Shown: one piece after another, positions 8,601 to 14,366 of the stretch
How the letters are laid out: the number at the start of each line of letters is the position of its first letter
How positions within the stretch are numbered: the stretch's first letter is position 1
From: a virus
DNA length: 30,380 bases
Strand: one strand, 5' to 3'
Virus record (IMG/VR): IMGVR_UViG_3300044634_000161
Location: 1-30,380 of that record
The notes under the pieces: generated by a model
What the model was told of the DNA's origin: nothing
The model's database searches: none
What the model saw: the letters and a program-made list of their open reading frames with translations, nothing else
Translations under genes and position numbers: made by a program

Positions 8601-11600
8601 TTATGCTCTCATATTAAGATTGCCATTCAACGATTTGGTTGCTGACACTGCTTTTTCCATTAAATTTGGCAACTTGGACATTTCACCAGACAGTTTGCCT
8701 ACTTGCATATTTAACGTATCTAGGCTGGCCACTACATCAGATAAGGTTGTTTCTTTGCCGGCACCTGCGGTAGTTTTTGGTTTGGCATCAGTTGCAGTTG
8801 CAGTTGCGGTTTTAGCAGTCTGCGCCTGTTGTTTGGCCTCTGCATCTTTTTTCTCAGCATCTTTCACTGCTGAATTCTTAGCAGCATCAACACCGGCAGT
8901 AGCACTGGCAGGTCCTGCCATTGGACCCATAAATCTATCCAGCATGCTGGCAAATGGATCTCGTCCTGTGGTAGTCTGAGTTTTATTTTTTGCAATAGCA
9001 CCTGCTAGATCACCAAACTCAGTGTCACGAGGTGTCTGATTAGCGCCATACAATGCCAAATCTTCAGGAGACTCTTCAGTAATTTCCGGTTGATTAGCAC
9101 CATACAATGCTAAGTCTTCATCAGACTCTGTTACTATTTCGCCTTGGTTGCTGACATGATCTAACAGTTTAGACTGTTTGTCTTGAATGGCAATCTCAGT
9201 GTCAGCCATTTCTTCTTTGAGATCTTGCAGTTCTTGTTCTTTTATTGCAATATCAGCAGTGGCATTTAAAATGTTTTGATTTCGTTCAGCAATACGATTT
9301 TGCAAAGATAGATTTATACTTTCTTCATCGGCTATTTGCGCTTGTAGTTCTTGAATTTCTGCTGCTGATTCTGAATTGTCAATTCTATTGCGCAGCATAG
9401 CCAATTCTTCGTTAGACTCTGCAAGATCTTTTTCTTCATACCGTTGATTATTTTCGTAGATATCTTTTTGTGCTTGTAATTTATCTAGGCTAGTCTGAAC
9501 ACTGGCTTGTCGTATTGATTGCACTTGCTTTTCGTCAGCCAGAGTAGATAATTCGTGTCCAATTTGTTGTAGTTCAGAATCAGAAAACTCTTTTTTAGTT
9601 GCCAACATTGACTGTGTCTGTTCTGCAATATTATTAGTCTGCTGAATAGTTTCTTCTCGTATGCTGGCTTCTGCAGCGACAGATTGTTGTTGAGCATCGG
9701 CCAACTCTTTTTCAGCAGTTAATAAATTTTTAGTGTCTTCAATCACTTGAGATTTTGCACCATCTAACTTGGTTCGCTGAGTTGTCAACTCATTTTCTAA
9801 TCGACGTTTTGTTCTTTCACTGTCAGTAGCAGCCAGTTCTTGTTCTTTGGCTGCAATATCTTTTTCTAAGAAAGAAACAAATTTTTCAGACGAGTCTTTG
9901 TAAATTTTAGCAGATTCAACACTGGCTTCTGCTTGTTGTTTCTTTGATGCCAATGCCTGTTCTTGTGCAAGTTTTTCAACAGATGCTGATTGTGTCAATT
10001 GTGAACCTGTTGCGGGCATATCGGCAAAAGATTTTTCAAAAGGTTTTGATAATTCTTTTATGTCTGGACCTTTGACTGTGCTGGCGCCGCCGCCAGTAAC
10101 TGAACTAATCTCAGTAGTAAATTTTTTACTCAGTTGAGTCAAATCAAGATTGCCCATCATCTTGCTAATATCATTTGTGGCCTTGCTTAAATCTGCCTGA
10201 GACATTTCTCTAGTCTTACCGTTTTCAGTTATTGTGCCTTTAAGTGCCGAAGCATCAAACTTAGGCATTTCAAACTTAGGCATTTCAAACTTAGGCATTT
10301 CAAACTTGGGCATGCCTGCTGACAGTTTGCTAAGATCTAAATTCTTTGACAAGTTATTAAATGCAGTGGCAGCACCTTTGTCCATCATGCCTTTGGCTAG
10401 ATTCATTTGTTGTTCGCCGTTCAGTACAACTTCACCGGGTTTGGTAATTTCTAGTATTGATCCAACATTTTCAAACATTTTTCCAGCACCGTAGGTTCCC
10501 TCTGAGCGCTCTTCTGGCCTTCCTGGTCTACGGTTAGCATCGGGGTTATTAGGATCTTTTCCTGGAATTAGACTGCCTGGGTTATTAAATGCTTCTTTAA
10601 TTCCAGTGTAGCCTTTTTCTACACCACCCGCCATACGTTCTCTACTGAATCCTGGCGCTTTCAAAAACTTTGTAAATTCAATCATGCCTGTCGCAATTTC
10701 GCCGTTCAATCTGTTGACAAACTGATCTTGAACCGCAGCAGTGGCATTCTGCATGACTTTTTCAAACTGTACCACTGCTTGGGTTGTGGCTTTGCCAGCA
10801 TCTGCTTCACCTGGCTTTGCCAGTGTTCTTGCATCGTCTTGTTGTTGTTTAGCCTGTGCATTTAGTATTTGATTAGCTTTACGGCGATCTGCTTCCAAAC
10901 TTAGATTCAAGTTGTTTGCTGTAGCCACTTTGTCCATACCTGCGGCTATAGTAGTTGTCTGGTCTGCTAATTGCCTAAAGCCTTTGGTATTCATTCCAGC
11001 CGCCGCTGTAAAATCATCGCTAAGGATTTGAGATTTGATCGCTTCTTCTGCACGTTTCACTGCTGCTTCTGCAGCAATTTTTTGTTCTTCTGTTTTTGCC
11101 GACTTGACCATTTGTATGGCATTTTGCAATTCGGTACCCGCTGGTCCCAATCCCGCCAATGTATCCTGTGTCTCTTTAGTGGCTGTGCCAAATGCTAGAA
11201 AATCTTTCATTAGATTTTGAACGCCTGGACCAAATTGTTGCATACTGGTCATGGCTTTCGTCATGCCTTCGACGGCAAATGTATTGCCTTGACGTTGGAG
11301 CATACGTAAGTTGGCTTGATACTGGCCGTCTTTTTCTAATAGTGCCATTTCTGCCTGTTGTGTTTCTCTACTTTTGCCAGTTAATTTGGCAATTTTATCC
11401 ATCTCCGTAGCCATTGATGCAGCCGATGCAATGGCATCTTCTCTACTTTTGGTATCTTCCATGTTTTGAAATCGTCTTGACGCCAGTTCAATGGCCAGTG
11501 TGCCATTGATTTCTTCTGATGTCATTCCTAAATTTCTTAACTGATCACTAACAGATCCAAATGAATCTCCTTGTTTAGCCTGTTGATCAAAGAATGCCTG

Positions 11601-12080
11601 ACTGAACTCATTGAATCTTGCAACACCTTGAGTAACAGATCCGCCCATAGCATTGAGAATACTGGTATTTTTGTTTAAAAATTTGCCGTATTCTTCTAAA
11701 CTCATATTGGTTTGTGCAATACTACTGCGCATAGCAATAGCATCGCCGTTGAATCCAGCACCAAATTTACCAAAATTTCGCATGGCATCAACTGACTGTT
11801 GTGCATATTGACCCATGTAAGACAATGCATCGCCTGCAATTTTACTTTTGTCGCCTATTCTGCCAATTAATTGTCCAACACCACCTACAGTATCGCCGAA
11901 CTTAACGCCGCCCTCTATGACTCCTCTCAGTGCGCCGCCGGCAATGTTAGCACCTTCGCTTAGGTTTTTTAGAAAATCTTTTCCGCCTCCAGGACCCAAA
12001 TTTACTGGCGCCGCGGCAGGAGCACTACGAGCTACTTGTCTAAGTGCGTCTACTAAATCATCTTTGGTCAATGCCGTCAT
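8601..12080 (-). CDS. Putative tail tape-measure protein (1159 aa)
   Basis: This 1159-aa protein starts with a Gly/Ala-rich hydrophobic region (residues 28-110), then helical segments. Around residues 515-560 it has FENVGSILEITKPGEVVLNGEQQMNLAKG, which resembles the 'pGEvVlN.eQ' element found in many tape-measure proteins. A four-fold PKFEM repeat follows near residues 590-615. Residues 690-1000 are almost unbroken coiled coil, followed by two copies of EDLALYGANQ and an Ala/Lys/Thr-rich tail. In T4 the corresponding protein is gp29 (590 aa), which sets tail length and is handled by hub chaperones. The neighbouring divergent genes (gp26 plus a small ORF) are candidate chaperones. Identification rests on size, architecture and context, not on recognised gp29 identity. 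A Shine-Dalgarno AGGATAG precedes the ATG. Confidence 0.65.
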   Translation of the reverse strand: MTALTKDDLVDALRQVARSAPAAAPVNLGPGGGKDFLKNLSEGANIAGGALRGVIEGGVKFGDTVGGVGQLIGRIGDKSKIAGDALSYMGQYAQQSVDAMRNFGKFGAGFNGDAIAMRSSIAQTNMSLEEYGKFLNKNTSILNAMGGSVTQGVARFNEFSQAFFDQQAKQGDSFGSVSDQLRNLGMTSEEINGTLAIELASRRFQNMEDTKSREDAIASAASMATEMDKIAKLTGKSRETQQAEMALLEKDGQYQANLRMLQRQGNTFAVEGMTKAMTSMQQFGPGVQNLMKDFLAFGTATKETQDTLAGLGPAGTELQNAIQMVKSAKTEEQKIAAEAAVKRAEEAIKSQILSDDFTAAAGMNTKGFRQLADQTTTIAAGMDKVATANNLNLSLEADRRKANQILNAQAKQQQDDARTLAKPGEADAGKATTQAVVQFEKVMQNATAAVQDQFVNRLNGEIATGMIEFTKFLKAPGFSRERMAGGVEKGYTGIKEAFNNPGSLIPGKDPNNPDANRRPGRPEERSEGTYGAGKMFENVGSILEITKPGEVVLNGEQQMNLAKGMMDKGAATAFNNLSKNLDLSKLSAGMPKFEMPKFEMPKFEMPKFDASALKGTITENGKTREMSQADLSKATNDISKMMGNLDLTQLSKKFTTEISSVTGGGASTVKGPDIKELSKPFEKSFADMPATGSQLTQSASVEKLAQEQALASKKQQAEASVESAKIYKDSSEKFVSFLEKDIAAKEQELAATDSERTKRRLENELTTQRTKLDGAKSQVIEDTKNLLTAEKELADAQQQSVAAEASIREETIQQTNNIAEQTQSMLATKKEFSDSELQQIGHELSTLADEKQVQSIRQASVQTSLDKLQAQKDIYENNQRYEEKDLAESNEELAMLRNRIDNSESAAEIQELQAQIADEESINLSLQNRIAERNQNILNATADIAIKEQELQDLKEEMADTEIAIQDKQSKLLDHVSNQGEIVTESDEDLALYGANQPEITEESPEDLALYGANQTPRDTEFGDLAGAIAKNKTQTTTGRDPFASMLDRFMGPMAGPASATAGVDAAKNSAVKDAEKKDAEAKQQAQTAKTATATATDAKPKTTAGAGKETTLSDVVASLDTLNMQVGKLSGEMSKLPNLMEKAVSATKSLNGNLNMRA
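10256..10315 (-). repeat. 15-bp tandem repeat, four copies, coding PKFEM
   Basis: Units start at 10256, 10271, 10286 and 10301. The first three are exact and the fourth differs at three positions. They encode the pentapeptide PKFEM (last copy PKFDA-like on the coding strand) in the tape-measure-like protein. Near-identity at DNA level suggests recent expansion. Confidence 0.9.
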
Positions 12081-12112: not shown

Positions 12113-12121
12113 CCTATGTTA

Positions 12122-12129: not shown

Positions 12130-12139
12130 CGGAGTTAAT

Positions 12140-12967
12140 ATGAGCCAAAATCCATTGCAAAAATATTTTAGACAACCCAAACTGTATGTGTCATTGCCCA
12201 GTAAAGGTTTGTATACTGCACCAGATGTTGTTGAAGGAGATCCTACACAGATCCCAGTGTATTCTATGACCGGCATGGATGAAATTCTGTTGAAAACTCC
12301 CGATGCATTGTTCAACGGTGAATCCACAGTGAAAGTTATTCAAAGTTGTTGTGCTACCATTACCGATGGCTGGCAAATAAATGCTGTTGATTTAGACCAT
12401 CTATTGATTGCTATCAGGATTGCCACATATGGCAACATGATGACTATTGAACATACCTGTGGCAATTGCAGTACCGAAAATGAATATGAGATTGATCTAG
12501 GCTTGTTAAATGATCATTTCAATCATGTAGAGTTTCATGACACTGTGGATCTTGGTGATGTCAAAGTAAAAATTAGACCTTTAACCTATAAAGAGATGAC
12601 CACTTTTAATTTAGAAAACTACACACTGCAAAAAATGTTGATCCAGTCTGCACAAAATTTTGACAACCCTGAAAATCAAAAAACTGTCAACGATTTGTAC
12701 ACCAAAATAGCCGCACTGCAAACTGAAGTGTTTATTCAAAGTATCGACAGTGTAGAAATTCCCGATGCTGTGGTCAATCAACAGGCTTATATCAAAGAAT
12801 GGATTACCAACAGTGAATCAGAATTGTTTGAAAAAATTAAAGATTGTATAGAAAACAATAGAAAAAATTGGAAACTGCCCGCAGTAAAATCTCAATGTAG
12901 TAACTGCGGCACTGCCGCTGACTTGGAAATCACCATGGATCAAGCAAGTTTTTTCGTAAGAAAATGA
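12140..12967 (+). CDS. 26: Baseplate hub assembly protein gp26 (possible tail chaperone)
   Basis: This belongs to the T4 gp26 family of proteins needed for hub assembly. The segment LPSKGLYTAPDVVEGDPTQIPVYSMTGMDEILLKTPDALFNG (residues 19-60) and the KVKIRPLTYKEM segment are typical. I chose the ATG at 12140 (275 aa) over the longer frame from 12116 because GGAG lies 5-8 bases upstream and the longer start lies ahead of the predicted transcription start. Two CxxC pairs, C107/C110 and C253/C256, could form a zinc site. T4 gp26 is shorter (208 aa). The last codons contain the slippery heptamer T-TTT-TTC in frame (12949-12955), and the stop overlaps the next ATG (ATGA). In T4, gp26 and gp51 are hub assembly factors acting around gp29, so the position beside the tape-measure gene fits. 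Confidence 0.85.
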   Translation: MSQNPLQKYFRQPKLYVSLPSKGLYTAPDVVEGDPTQIPVYSMTGMDEILLKTPDALFNGESTVKVIQSCCATITDGWQINAVDLDHLLIAIRIATYGNMMTIEHTCGNCSTENEYEIDLGLLNDHFNHVEFHDTVDLGDVKVKIRPLTYKEMTTFNLENYTLQKMLIQSAQNFDNPENQKTVNDLYTKIAALQTEVFIQSIDSVEIPDAVVNQQAYIKEWITNSESELFEKIKDCIENNRKNWKLPAVKSQCSNCGTAADLEITMDQASFFVRK

Positions 12968-12991
12968 CGACTATGTCGAACTCTGACATAG
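12949..12991 (+). promoter_or_regulatory. Candidate programmed -1 ribosomal frameshift site at the gp26 3' end
   Basis: The heptamer T TTT TTC (12949-12955) is in the correct phase: gp26 codons are AGT, TTT, TTC. A -1 slip continues CGT AAG AAA and enters the next ORF in frame, with no stop between. The gp26 stop lies only four codons downstream. A 7-pair hairpin, CTATGTC (12971-12977) with GACATAG (12985-12991) and a 7-base loop, begins 15 bases after the heptamer, a little farther than the usual 5-9 bases. The fusion would be 272 residues of gp26 plus 76 more, 348 aa. Confidence 0.55.
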
Positions 12992-13185
12992 GCAAATATG
13001 TTGAGCGACTAGAATCTACTGTCAAGGGTATCAAAGAAGAAATTTTTAAAATCAGTTGGTATATGCGTGGGGGTGTATCCGCACAAGAACTGTTTCACAT
13101 ATATTCTTACGAAGACAGGATGTTGTTAAGTTCTTTAATCAAAGACAACATTGAAACTATACAAAAAACCAAGTTGCCGCTTTAG
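12964..13185 (+). CDS. Small hub/chaperone ORF overlapping gp26 (gp51-like position, 73 aa)
   Basis: The 73-residue protein begins MTTMSNSDIGKYVERLE and is helical, with the central motif SWYMRGGVSAQELFHIYSYEDRMLL. This 'WyMRGG.s..el...s..er..l' pattern is typical of the short ORF that follows tail-chaperone genes and makes the second half of a frameshift product. In T4 the neighbour of gene 26 is gene 51, another hub assembly factor, but at 249 aa it is much longer and I see no certain identity. There is no convincing Shine-Dalgarno in front of 12964 or the second ATG at 12973. Expression would therefore depend on ATGA coupling or on the -1 frameshift described above. Its stop overlaps the stop of the convergent gene at 13182. 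Confidence 0.7.
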   Translation: MTTMSNSDIGKYVERLESTVKGIKEEIFKISWYMRGGVSAQELFHIYSYEDRMLLSSLIKDNIETIQKTKLPL

Positions 13186-14337: not shown

Positions 14338-14366
14338 GGAACCGTTTTGCACGGTTCCATCTTTTT
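14338..14366 (+). terminator. Strong Rho-independent terminator, plus strand
   Basis: GGAACCGT (14338-14345) pairs with ACGGTTCC (14351-14358) over TTTGC, followed by ATCTTTTT. Orientation is plus, although both flanking genes are on the minus strand. The nearest plus-strand transcript is the gp26 message, 1.15 kb upstream, which has no terminator of its own. Confidence 0.7.

Follow-up and report, generated by a model that had tools for sequence, protein, structure and literature searches.

We identified a gp26-type gene that probably yields a tail-assembly chaperone in two forms, a short protein of 275 amino acids and a −1-frameshifted long protein of 348 amino acids; on comparative sequence evidence, we put the probability of this reading at roughly 85%. 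The DNA analysed (hereafter, the window) is a 30-kb fragment of 30,380 nt, positions 1–30,380 of IMG/VR record IMGVR_UViG_3300044634_000161, and its source is a T4-like phage, probably a large one. Close to the gp26 stop, ribosomes very likely shift into the −1 frame, at a heptamer that is also found in relatives (Table 1).

Table 1 Position and strand of the slip site, the two overlapping reading frames and neighbouring features in the window
Feature	Position	Strand	Basis or remark
Putative gp26-type tail-assembly chaperone, short form, 275 aa	12140..12967	+	PF12322, phrog_150, BFVD fold; start read from sequence
Slippery heptamer T_TTT_TTC (TTTTTTC), in gp26 phase	12949..12955	+	Read from sequence; conserved in relatives
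C-terminal extension of predicted long form (76 aa beyond the slip, ending at TAG)	12955..13185	+	Open −1 frame
73-aa ORF	12964..13185	+	ATG overlaps gp26 stop as ATGA; no ribosome site
Hairpin, 8 pairs, possible stimulator	12971..12991 (12971–12978 with 12984–12991)	+	Folding
Divergent neighbour, 1159 aa, possible tape-measure protein	8601..12080	-	Position only

The gp26 protein belongs to PF12322 (Pfam T4_baseplate; 59.2 bits, E = 6e-16, against a curated cut-off of 24.5), of which the window fragment holds one copy, and it matches phrog_150 in PHROG (E = 2.7e-18). Its AF2 model (pLDDT 87.2) gave 53 BFVD matches with E values up to 0.001, including T4-like baseplate hub assembly proteins, one of which was the best match (E = 4.1e-22). 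Among solved structures, a profile search with gp26 returned nothing and no PDB structure matched the model with E < 0.001; the best VIA-align superposition on the PDB (Z 8.0, rmsd 1.6) covered only 51 residues of a helical part, and the Foldseek and VIA-align matches there were generic, excluding no family. T4 has two PF12322 members, gp26 and gp51, both listed as hub assembly chaperones in a review (PMC3004832) that describes gp51 as essential and of unknown function; family membership and these two T4 proteins together support the chaperone role that the first-pass annotation had proposed. The start of gp26 is most likely the ATG at 12140: GGAG at 12131–12134 lies five bases before it, and the conserved N terminus MSQNPLQKY agrees with it. 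The ORF caller had chosen an in-frame ATG further upstream, at 12116, so that the length initially given (283 aa) is corrected to 275 aa. In BFVD, the gp26 model also resembled, more weakly (E = 7e-7 to 8e-5, TMq about 0.44–0.52), uncharacterised proteins of 500–690 aa from the Erwinia phages Special G and phiEaH2 and the Ralstonia phages RSF1 and RP12, within which, judging from the models, a gp26-type chaperone may be contained.

The 3′ end of gp26 reads AGT TTT TTC GTA AGA AAA TGA, with the codons of the conserved Phe-Phe end forming the heptamer and three sense codons separating it from the stop (TGA, 12965–12967). No stop interrupts the −1 frame between 12922 and 13185, so the window shows the signature of a programmed −1 frameshift, that is, X_XXY_YYZ in the zero frame with a −1 frame that stays open past the zero-frame stop. 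Both the phase of the heptamer just before the stop and the continuity of the −1 frame into the small ORF had been claimed beforehand, and both hold. Across the 9194 codons of the 24 window ORFs, in which Phe is encoded as TTT:TTC at 293:76, an in-phase TTTTTTC occurs a single time, namely at the end of gp26. No Shine–Dalgarno-like sequence was found before the ATG at 12964, bearing out the earlier remark that the small ORF has no good ribosome site. An ATG at this position is confined, among the 20 loci from a scan with the small ORF, to those nearly identical to the window. On this reading, most ribosomes would stop at the gp26 TGA and release the 275-aa protein, and a minority would move into the −1 frame at T_TTT_TTC and continue to 13185, producing the 348-aa form.

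The site is conserved in environmental relatives. A scan with gp26 alone gave at least 598 stretches from at least 575 relatives, of which the best 80 loci were used; together with the window they provide 81 complete 3′ ends, 62 of them distinct in the last 100 residues (one relative, L156, is identical to the window there), and these represent the nearest relatives, not a random sample. T_TTT_TTC lies in phase in all 62 distinct ends from these best 80 of at least 575 relatives plus the window. The −1 extension, counted from the heptamer, is 78–79 aa long in 59 of the 62, and the other three run off their contigs. The separate scan with the small ORF recovered 20 loci (L001–L020), each of which carries T_TTT_TTC too, within a long frame on the upstream side; here the frame is set by the heptamer, and gp26 identity rests on an open length of 254–315 aa (102 aa in the truncated L014).

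Named phages tell much the same story. A tblastn search with gp26 found 62 phage records, and we examined 17 jumbo phages among them, with hosts in Erwinia, Agrobacterium, Sinorhizobium, Pseudomonas, Xanthomonas, Klebsiella, Cronobacter, Salmonella, Pectobacterium, Escherichia, Salicola and Stenotrophomonas. The in-phase heptamer is T_TTT_TTC in 15 and T_TTT_TTT in two of the 17, the −1 frame is open in all of them, and the gp26 stop follows after 1 to 11 sense codons. A joined CDS is absent from all 17 feature tables; the extension is covered by a separate short CDS in 14 records and by no CDS in three (Cassandra, RaK2 and PA5oct). In the Atu_ph07 record, the extension is annotated late, from an internal start codon (L044, 3316–3552). 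Among seven other phages with PF12322 genes, six (S-PM2, HTVC008M, Cr30, phiM12, KVP40 and PhiW-14) combine a slip site with an open −1 frame; the minus-strand loci of HTVC008M and KVP40, for example, end in AGT TTT TTT TAA and GAT TTT TTC GTA TAA, respectively. Seven T instead of six occur at the slip site in two jumbo phages and three of the others. The seventh of these other phages, Salmonella phage Vi01 (L072, around 2250–2265), has a gp26 homologue ending in GAA ATT TTC ATT TAA, with A_ATT_TTC at the site and a −1 frame that is open exactly from there onward; no canonical X_XXY_YYZ heptamer was found at this end, and Vi01 may use a non-standard slip site or another mechanism. The first-pass annotation had held that conservation of the heptamer and overlap amid varying surroundings would favour frameshifting and that relatives with the gene pair and no in-phase slip site would count against it: the site is kept in 62 of 62 environmental ends and, leaving T4 aside, in 23 of 24 named phages, with Vi01 as the one relative partly of the opposing kind. 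An assembly factor should be missing from the virion, and on this the data are mixed. For RaK2, the text of the published description counts ORF087 (gp087, gp26 by position) as structural and does not place it among the proteins named as undetected; neither CBB_249 nor CBB_250 is listed in an excerpt of the CBB virion table, although the accompanying text gives CBB_250 another size and the numbering is unsure.

How the extension is reached can be judged from its start codons. Among the 62 distinct ends (best 80 of at least 575 relatives, plus the window), 49 have no ATG in the 20 codons after Phe-Phe, which makes slippage the obvious route to the extension, and 32 have no ATG, GTG or TTG there. 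The alternative with most in its favour is translational coupling, whereby ribosomes ending at TGA would restart, with no frameshift, at the overlapping ATG of the ATGA (12964) and the small ORF would be a gene of its own. The window has this overlap, restarting at overlaps needs little or no ribosome site, and the separate short CDSs of the 14 jumbo records would fit such a gene. An ATG in the −1 frame within eight codons of the heptamer is likewise found in 10 of the 23 named heptamer-bearing phages (Atu_ph07, Phosso, XbC2, Kaldavass, 121Q, S-PM2, Cr30, phiM12, KVP40 and PhiW-14), and restart there could add to or replace slippage in these ten and in the window. Nonetheless, the frame and heptamer are kept in the 49 ends that lack the ATG and in the 32 that lack all three start codons; L160, with 63% gp26 identity to the window, has already lost the ATG and retains TTTTTTC (TTT TTC is present at Phe-Phe in L160 and in L188). 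Coupling would also leave unexplained the invariant TTT TTC codons and the covarying stem described below. We consider it unlikely as the sole route, although it might operate in addition to slippage.

The 3′ stimulatory structures of −1 frameshift sites typically lie about 5–9 nt downstream. In the 62 distinct environmental ends (best 80 of at least 575 relatives, plus the window), the region 3′ of the heptamer folds with a mean z of −1.96 versus −0.27 in 186 same-gene controls, values not corrected for common descent. From 61 distinct 60-nt sites, we aligned 45 of the 46 in which the stop comes 16 nt after the first base of the heptamer, with the window replacing the identical L156 and with L234 and the 15 sites of other spacings left out. 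A 12-bp stem (columns 14–25 with 50–61) begins 6 nt after the heptamer in this alignment; it was picked from single folds after the sequences had been seen, and was then tested by pair counts. Its distribution is bimodal—at least 10 of the 12 pairs form in 30 of the 45 sites and at most 7 form in 15, including the window (4 of 12). Overall, 76.1% of stem cells are paired versus 66.7% in shuffled alignments, 64 cells are changed on both sides versus 25.7 ± 4.2, and the covariation score is 0.356 versus 0.215 ± 0.016, with none of 500 shuffles reaching either of the latter two values; the signal drops clearly when the pairing is slid. Two further measures were weak, namely the number of pairs with changes on both sides (8 versus 6.8 shuffled, reached by 112 of 500) and the number of pair types (26 versus 22.2, 18 of 500), and RNAalifold predicted no consensus structure for the mixed alignment.

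The window itself has a different structure. The hairpin reported after the heptamer exists, with eight pairs rather than seven, and is distinct from the conserved stem, beginning 15 nt past the heptamer and thus beyond the typical spacer. Fold z values for the window are −4.36 (40 nt), −2.43 (50 nt), −2.93 (60 nt) and −0.86 (80 nt), the 50- and 60-nt folds using pairing other than this hairpin. Across 14 aligned rows, all eight of its pairs form in the window, L181 and L220, seven in L188, six in L158 and two to four in the other nine. Among the 23 named heptamer-bearing phages, a downstream fold with z < −2 was found in seven (S-PM2 (−5.21), XacN1, Cassandra, PA5oct, Cr30, Atu_ph07 and Phosso) and was not found in the other 16, which include all eight enterobacterial jumbo phages. 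Slippage by RNA polymerase on the T run, which would join the frames through a shortened or lengthened mRNA, could draw on the homopolymeric run and on the phages with seven T; six T, however, is short for transcriptional slippage, and a stem at ribosomal spacing covaries in many relatives, so we regard this possibility as very improbable.

In 49 representatives less than 80% alike, Phe-Phe is encoded as TTT in 49 of 49 and TTC in 49 of 49, the sole never-varying codons among 43 columns with conserved residues. Given the codon usage of the gene concerned, the chance of NNT TTT there averages about 0.44 for a single sequence. A coincidence, with protein constraints accounting for Phe-Phe and chance for the open −1 frame, could draw on T4 gp26, which keeps Phe-Phe with the non-slippery codons TTC TTT. 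This alternative is refuted as far as comparison allows and retains next to no probability, given that the joint chance of NNT TTT (common descent not corrected for) is 10^-18 for the 49 representatives and 10^-9 for 24 representatives less than 60% alike, and that invariant W, YMRGG, DR, N and PL positions are common to the extensions in ten environmental sequences.

The frameshift extension would give the 348-aa form a helical C-terminal domain; its AF2 model is helical with a pLDDT of 91.3. The 73-aa ORF matched nothing in Pfam or PHROG. For the 49 extensions, matches were scattered and weak (best Pfam E = 0.00031, to DUF1192 in 2 of 49; best PHROG E = 0.0042); on account of this scatter, the DUF1192 and other weak matches were taken as chance. 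A profile search of solved structures with the window extension gave 11 matches with E values of 0.067 or worse, and the best BFVD matches of the extension model were two uncharacterised phage proteins of 72–73 aa (E = 0.025 and 0.029). Profile–profile comparison by hhalign linked the window-family extension to those of ten jumbo phages of enterobacteria and Xanthomonas (E = 3.3e-8, probability 94); S-PM2-type and jumbo extensions were weakly similar (E = 0.0011, probability 8), and the window family did not match the S-PM2 type (E = 0.78). For the suggested homology with lambda gpT, hhalign gave no significant match to the small ORF, such domains diverging strongly, and the proposed comparison with gp51 likewise gave no significant match to the T4 gp51 C terminus (E = 0.32).

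Copy number separates T4 from these phages. T4 has its two PF12322 genes, whereas 16 of the 17 jumbo records have one, as do four environmental contigs and each of the seven other phages; in the remaining jumbo record, SCTP-2, there was no PF12322 match and gp26 was found by tblastn only. T4 gp26 keeps Phe-Phe and has no slip site (TTC TTT GAG TTA CTA TAA), and the −1 frame at its end is the start of gene 25. T4 gp51 (L060, 3980–4729) consists of the PF12322 domain and about 48 extra C-terminal residues—the architecture that a frameshift fusion would have—and reads as a gp26 paralogue with an added tail. Where the window pairs a single gene with a slip site, T4 has a second gene and lacks the site at its gp26 end. 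By hhalign, the gp51 tail matches the −1-frame extensions encoded by six phages of the S-PM2 type (E = 3.7e-6, probability 73) and not the window extension directly; the link of the window extension to gp51 rests on its position after the same Phe-Phe, because no sequence match connects the two. In a tree of 26 proteins (midpoint root), the window falls among the jumbo phages and is separated from the T4/cyanophage group (100/100); T4 gp26 and gp51 are long branches, and their joining is not trustworthy. Slip sites occur on both sides of the tree and are therefore probably older than the T4 arrangement. On balance, we favour a broader scenario in which frameshifting at the gp26 Phe-Phe is ancestral in T4-like phages, including jumbo and uncultured ones, and T4 gp26/gp51 is a derived duplication. 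The C-terminal domain of the long form, mostly ATG-less in the window lineage and with no Pfam or PHROG family for the window protein, would have been overlooked or split off in records, and its synthesis would be tuned by lineage-specific RNA—the covarying stem spaced at 6 nt or a hairpin further down.

Frameshifting in lambda-type tail chaperones is a classical mechanism. As in lambda G/G-T and P2 E/E+E′, a short protein and its −1 extension would come out of one gene here; the slip sites in the records are G_GGA_AAG for lambda and T_TTT_TTG for P2, compared with T_TTT_TTC in the window. In lambda and P2, however, the gene pair lies just upstream of the tape-measure gene on the same strand, whereas in the window the large neighbour is divergent. 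Tail assembly chaperone genes of T4-like phages have reportedly been identified by Vladimirov, Gautam and Davidson in 2022 (Virology 566:9-15). A 2016 paper states that lambda gpG and gpG-T bind the tape measure, with the T part bringing in the tube protein, and that the lambda-type mechanism is widely conserved ‘except T4’ (PMC5009743). According to later papers, some T4-like phages do not frameshift but encode the short and long forms in separate genes (PMC10885494), and the TAC-N genes of T4-like phages are known to contain polyT slippery sequences (PMC12846349). For Vandenendeviridae and Andersonviridae (phage Adele), the latter also argues from 56 unique alleles of 159 genomes for a −1 frameshift at a GTTTTT motif where the chaperone gene ends; the slip predicted here lies at a comparable place, in different phage families. 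Frameshift-made tail chaperones are thus already known, from lambda and, according to these citing papers, from some T4-like phages, which partly answers the question left in the first-pass annotation of whether this had been described for T4-type phages. In the open-licence literature searched, setting aside papers on the jumbo phages PaBG (PMC7412058) and G (PMC8570332) that mention a frameshift, we recognised no paper on such a frameshift in jumbo T4-like phages and did not meet the jumbo and uncultured set, the extension without a start codon or the covarying stem.

The divergent orientation of the large neighbour had been read correctly, and its tape-measure identity gained no support from profile searches (no Pfam match at 0.1, no PHROG match at 0.01). 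With blastp, its protein resembles the corresponding neighbours in GAP32 and RaK2 only marginally (best E = 0.040), and a note in the RaK2 record describes the positional counterpart there as similar to a tape measure protein. Elsewhere in the window, at 14338–14366, the non-coding stretch next to a minus-strand ORF of 364 aa holds a terminator-like inverted repeat (GGAACCG ... CGGTTCC), after which comes a short run of T.

If lambda G/G-T is taken as the model, the part shared by both proteins would hold the tape measure and the extra domain of the long form would recruit tube or baseplate partners, with the stem 6 nt downstream of the heptamer assisting slippage in many relatives. We infer that the long form would take the place of T4 gp51, which could then be tested as the long member of a chaperone pair of the lambda kind. 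For the annotation of large T4-like phages, a practical rule is to seek T_TTT_TTY at the end of gp26, and the ORF that has been split off or left unannotated there becomes a likely partner of the tail-assembly chaperone. The comparison also suggests how one protein pair can be maintained by either frameshifting or gene duplication.
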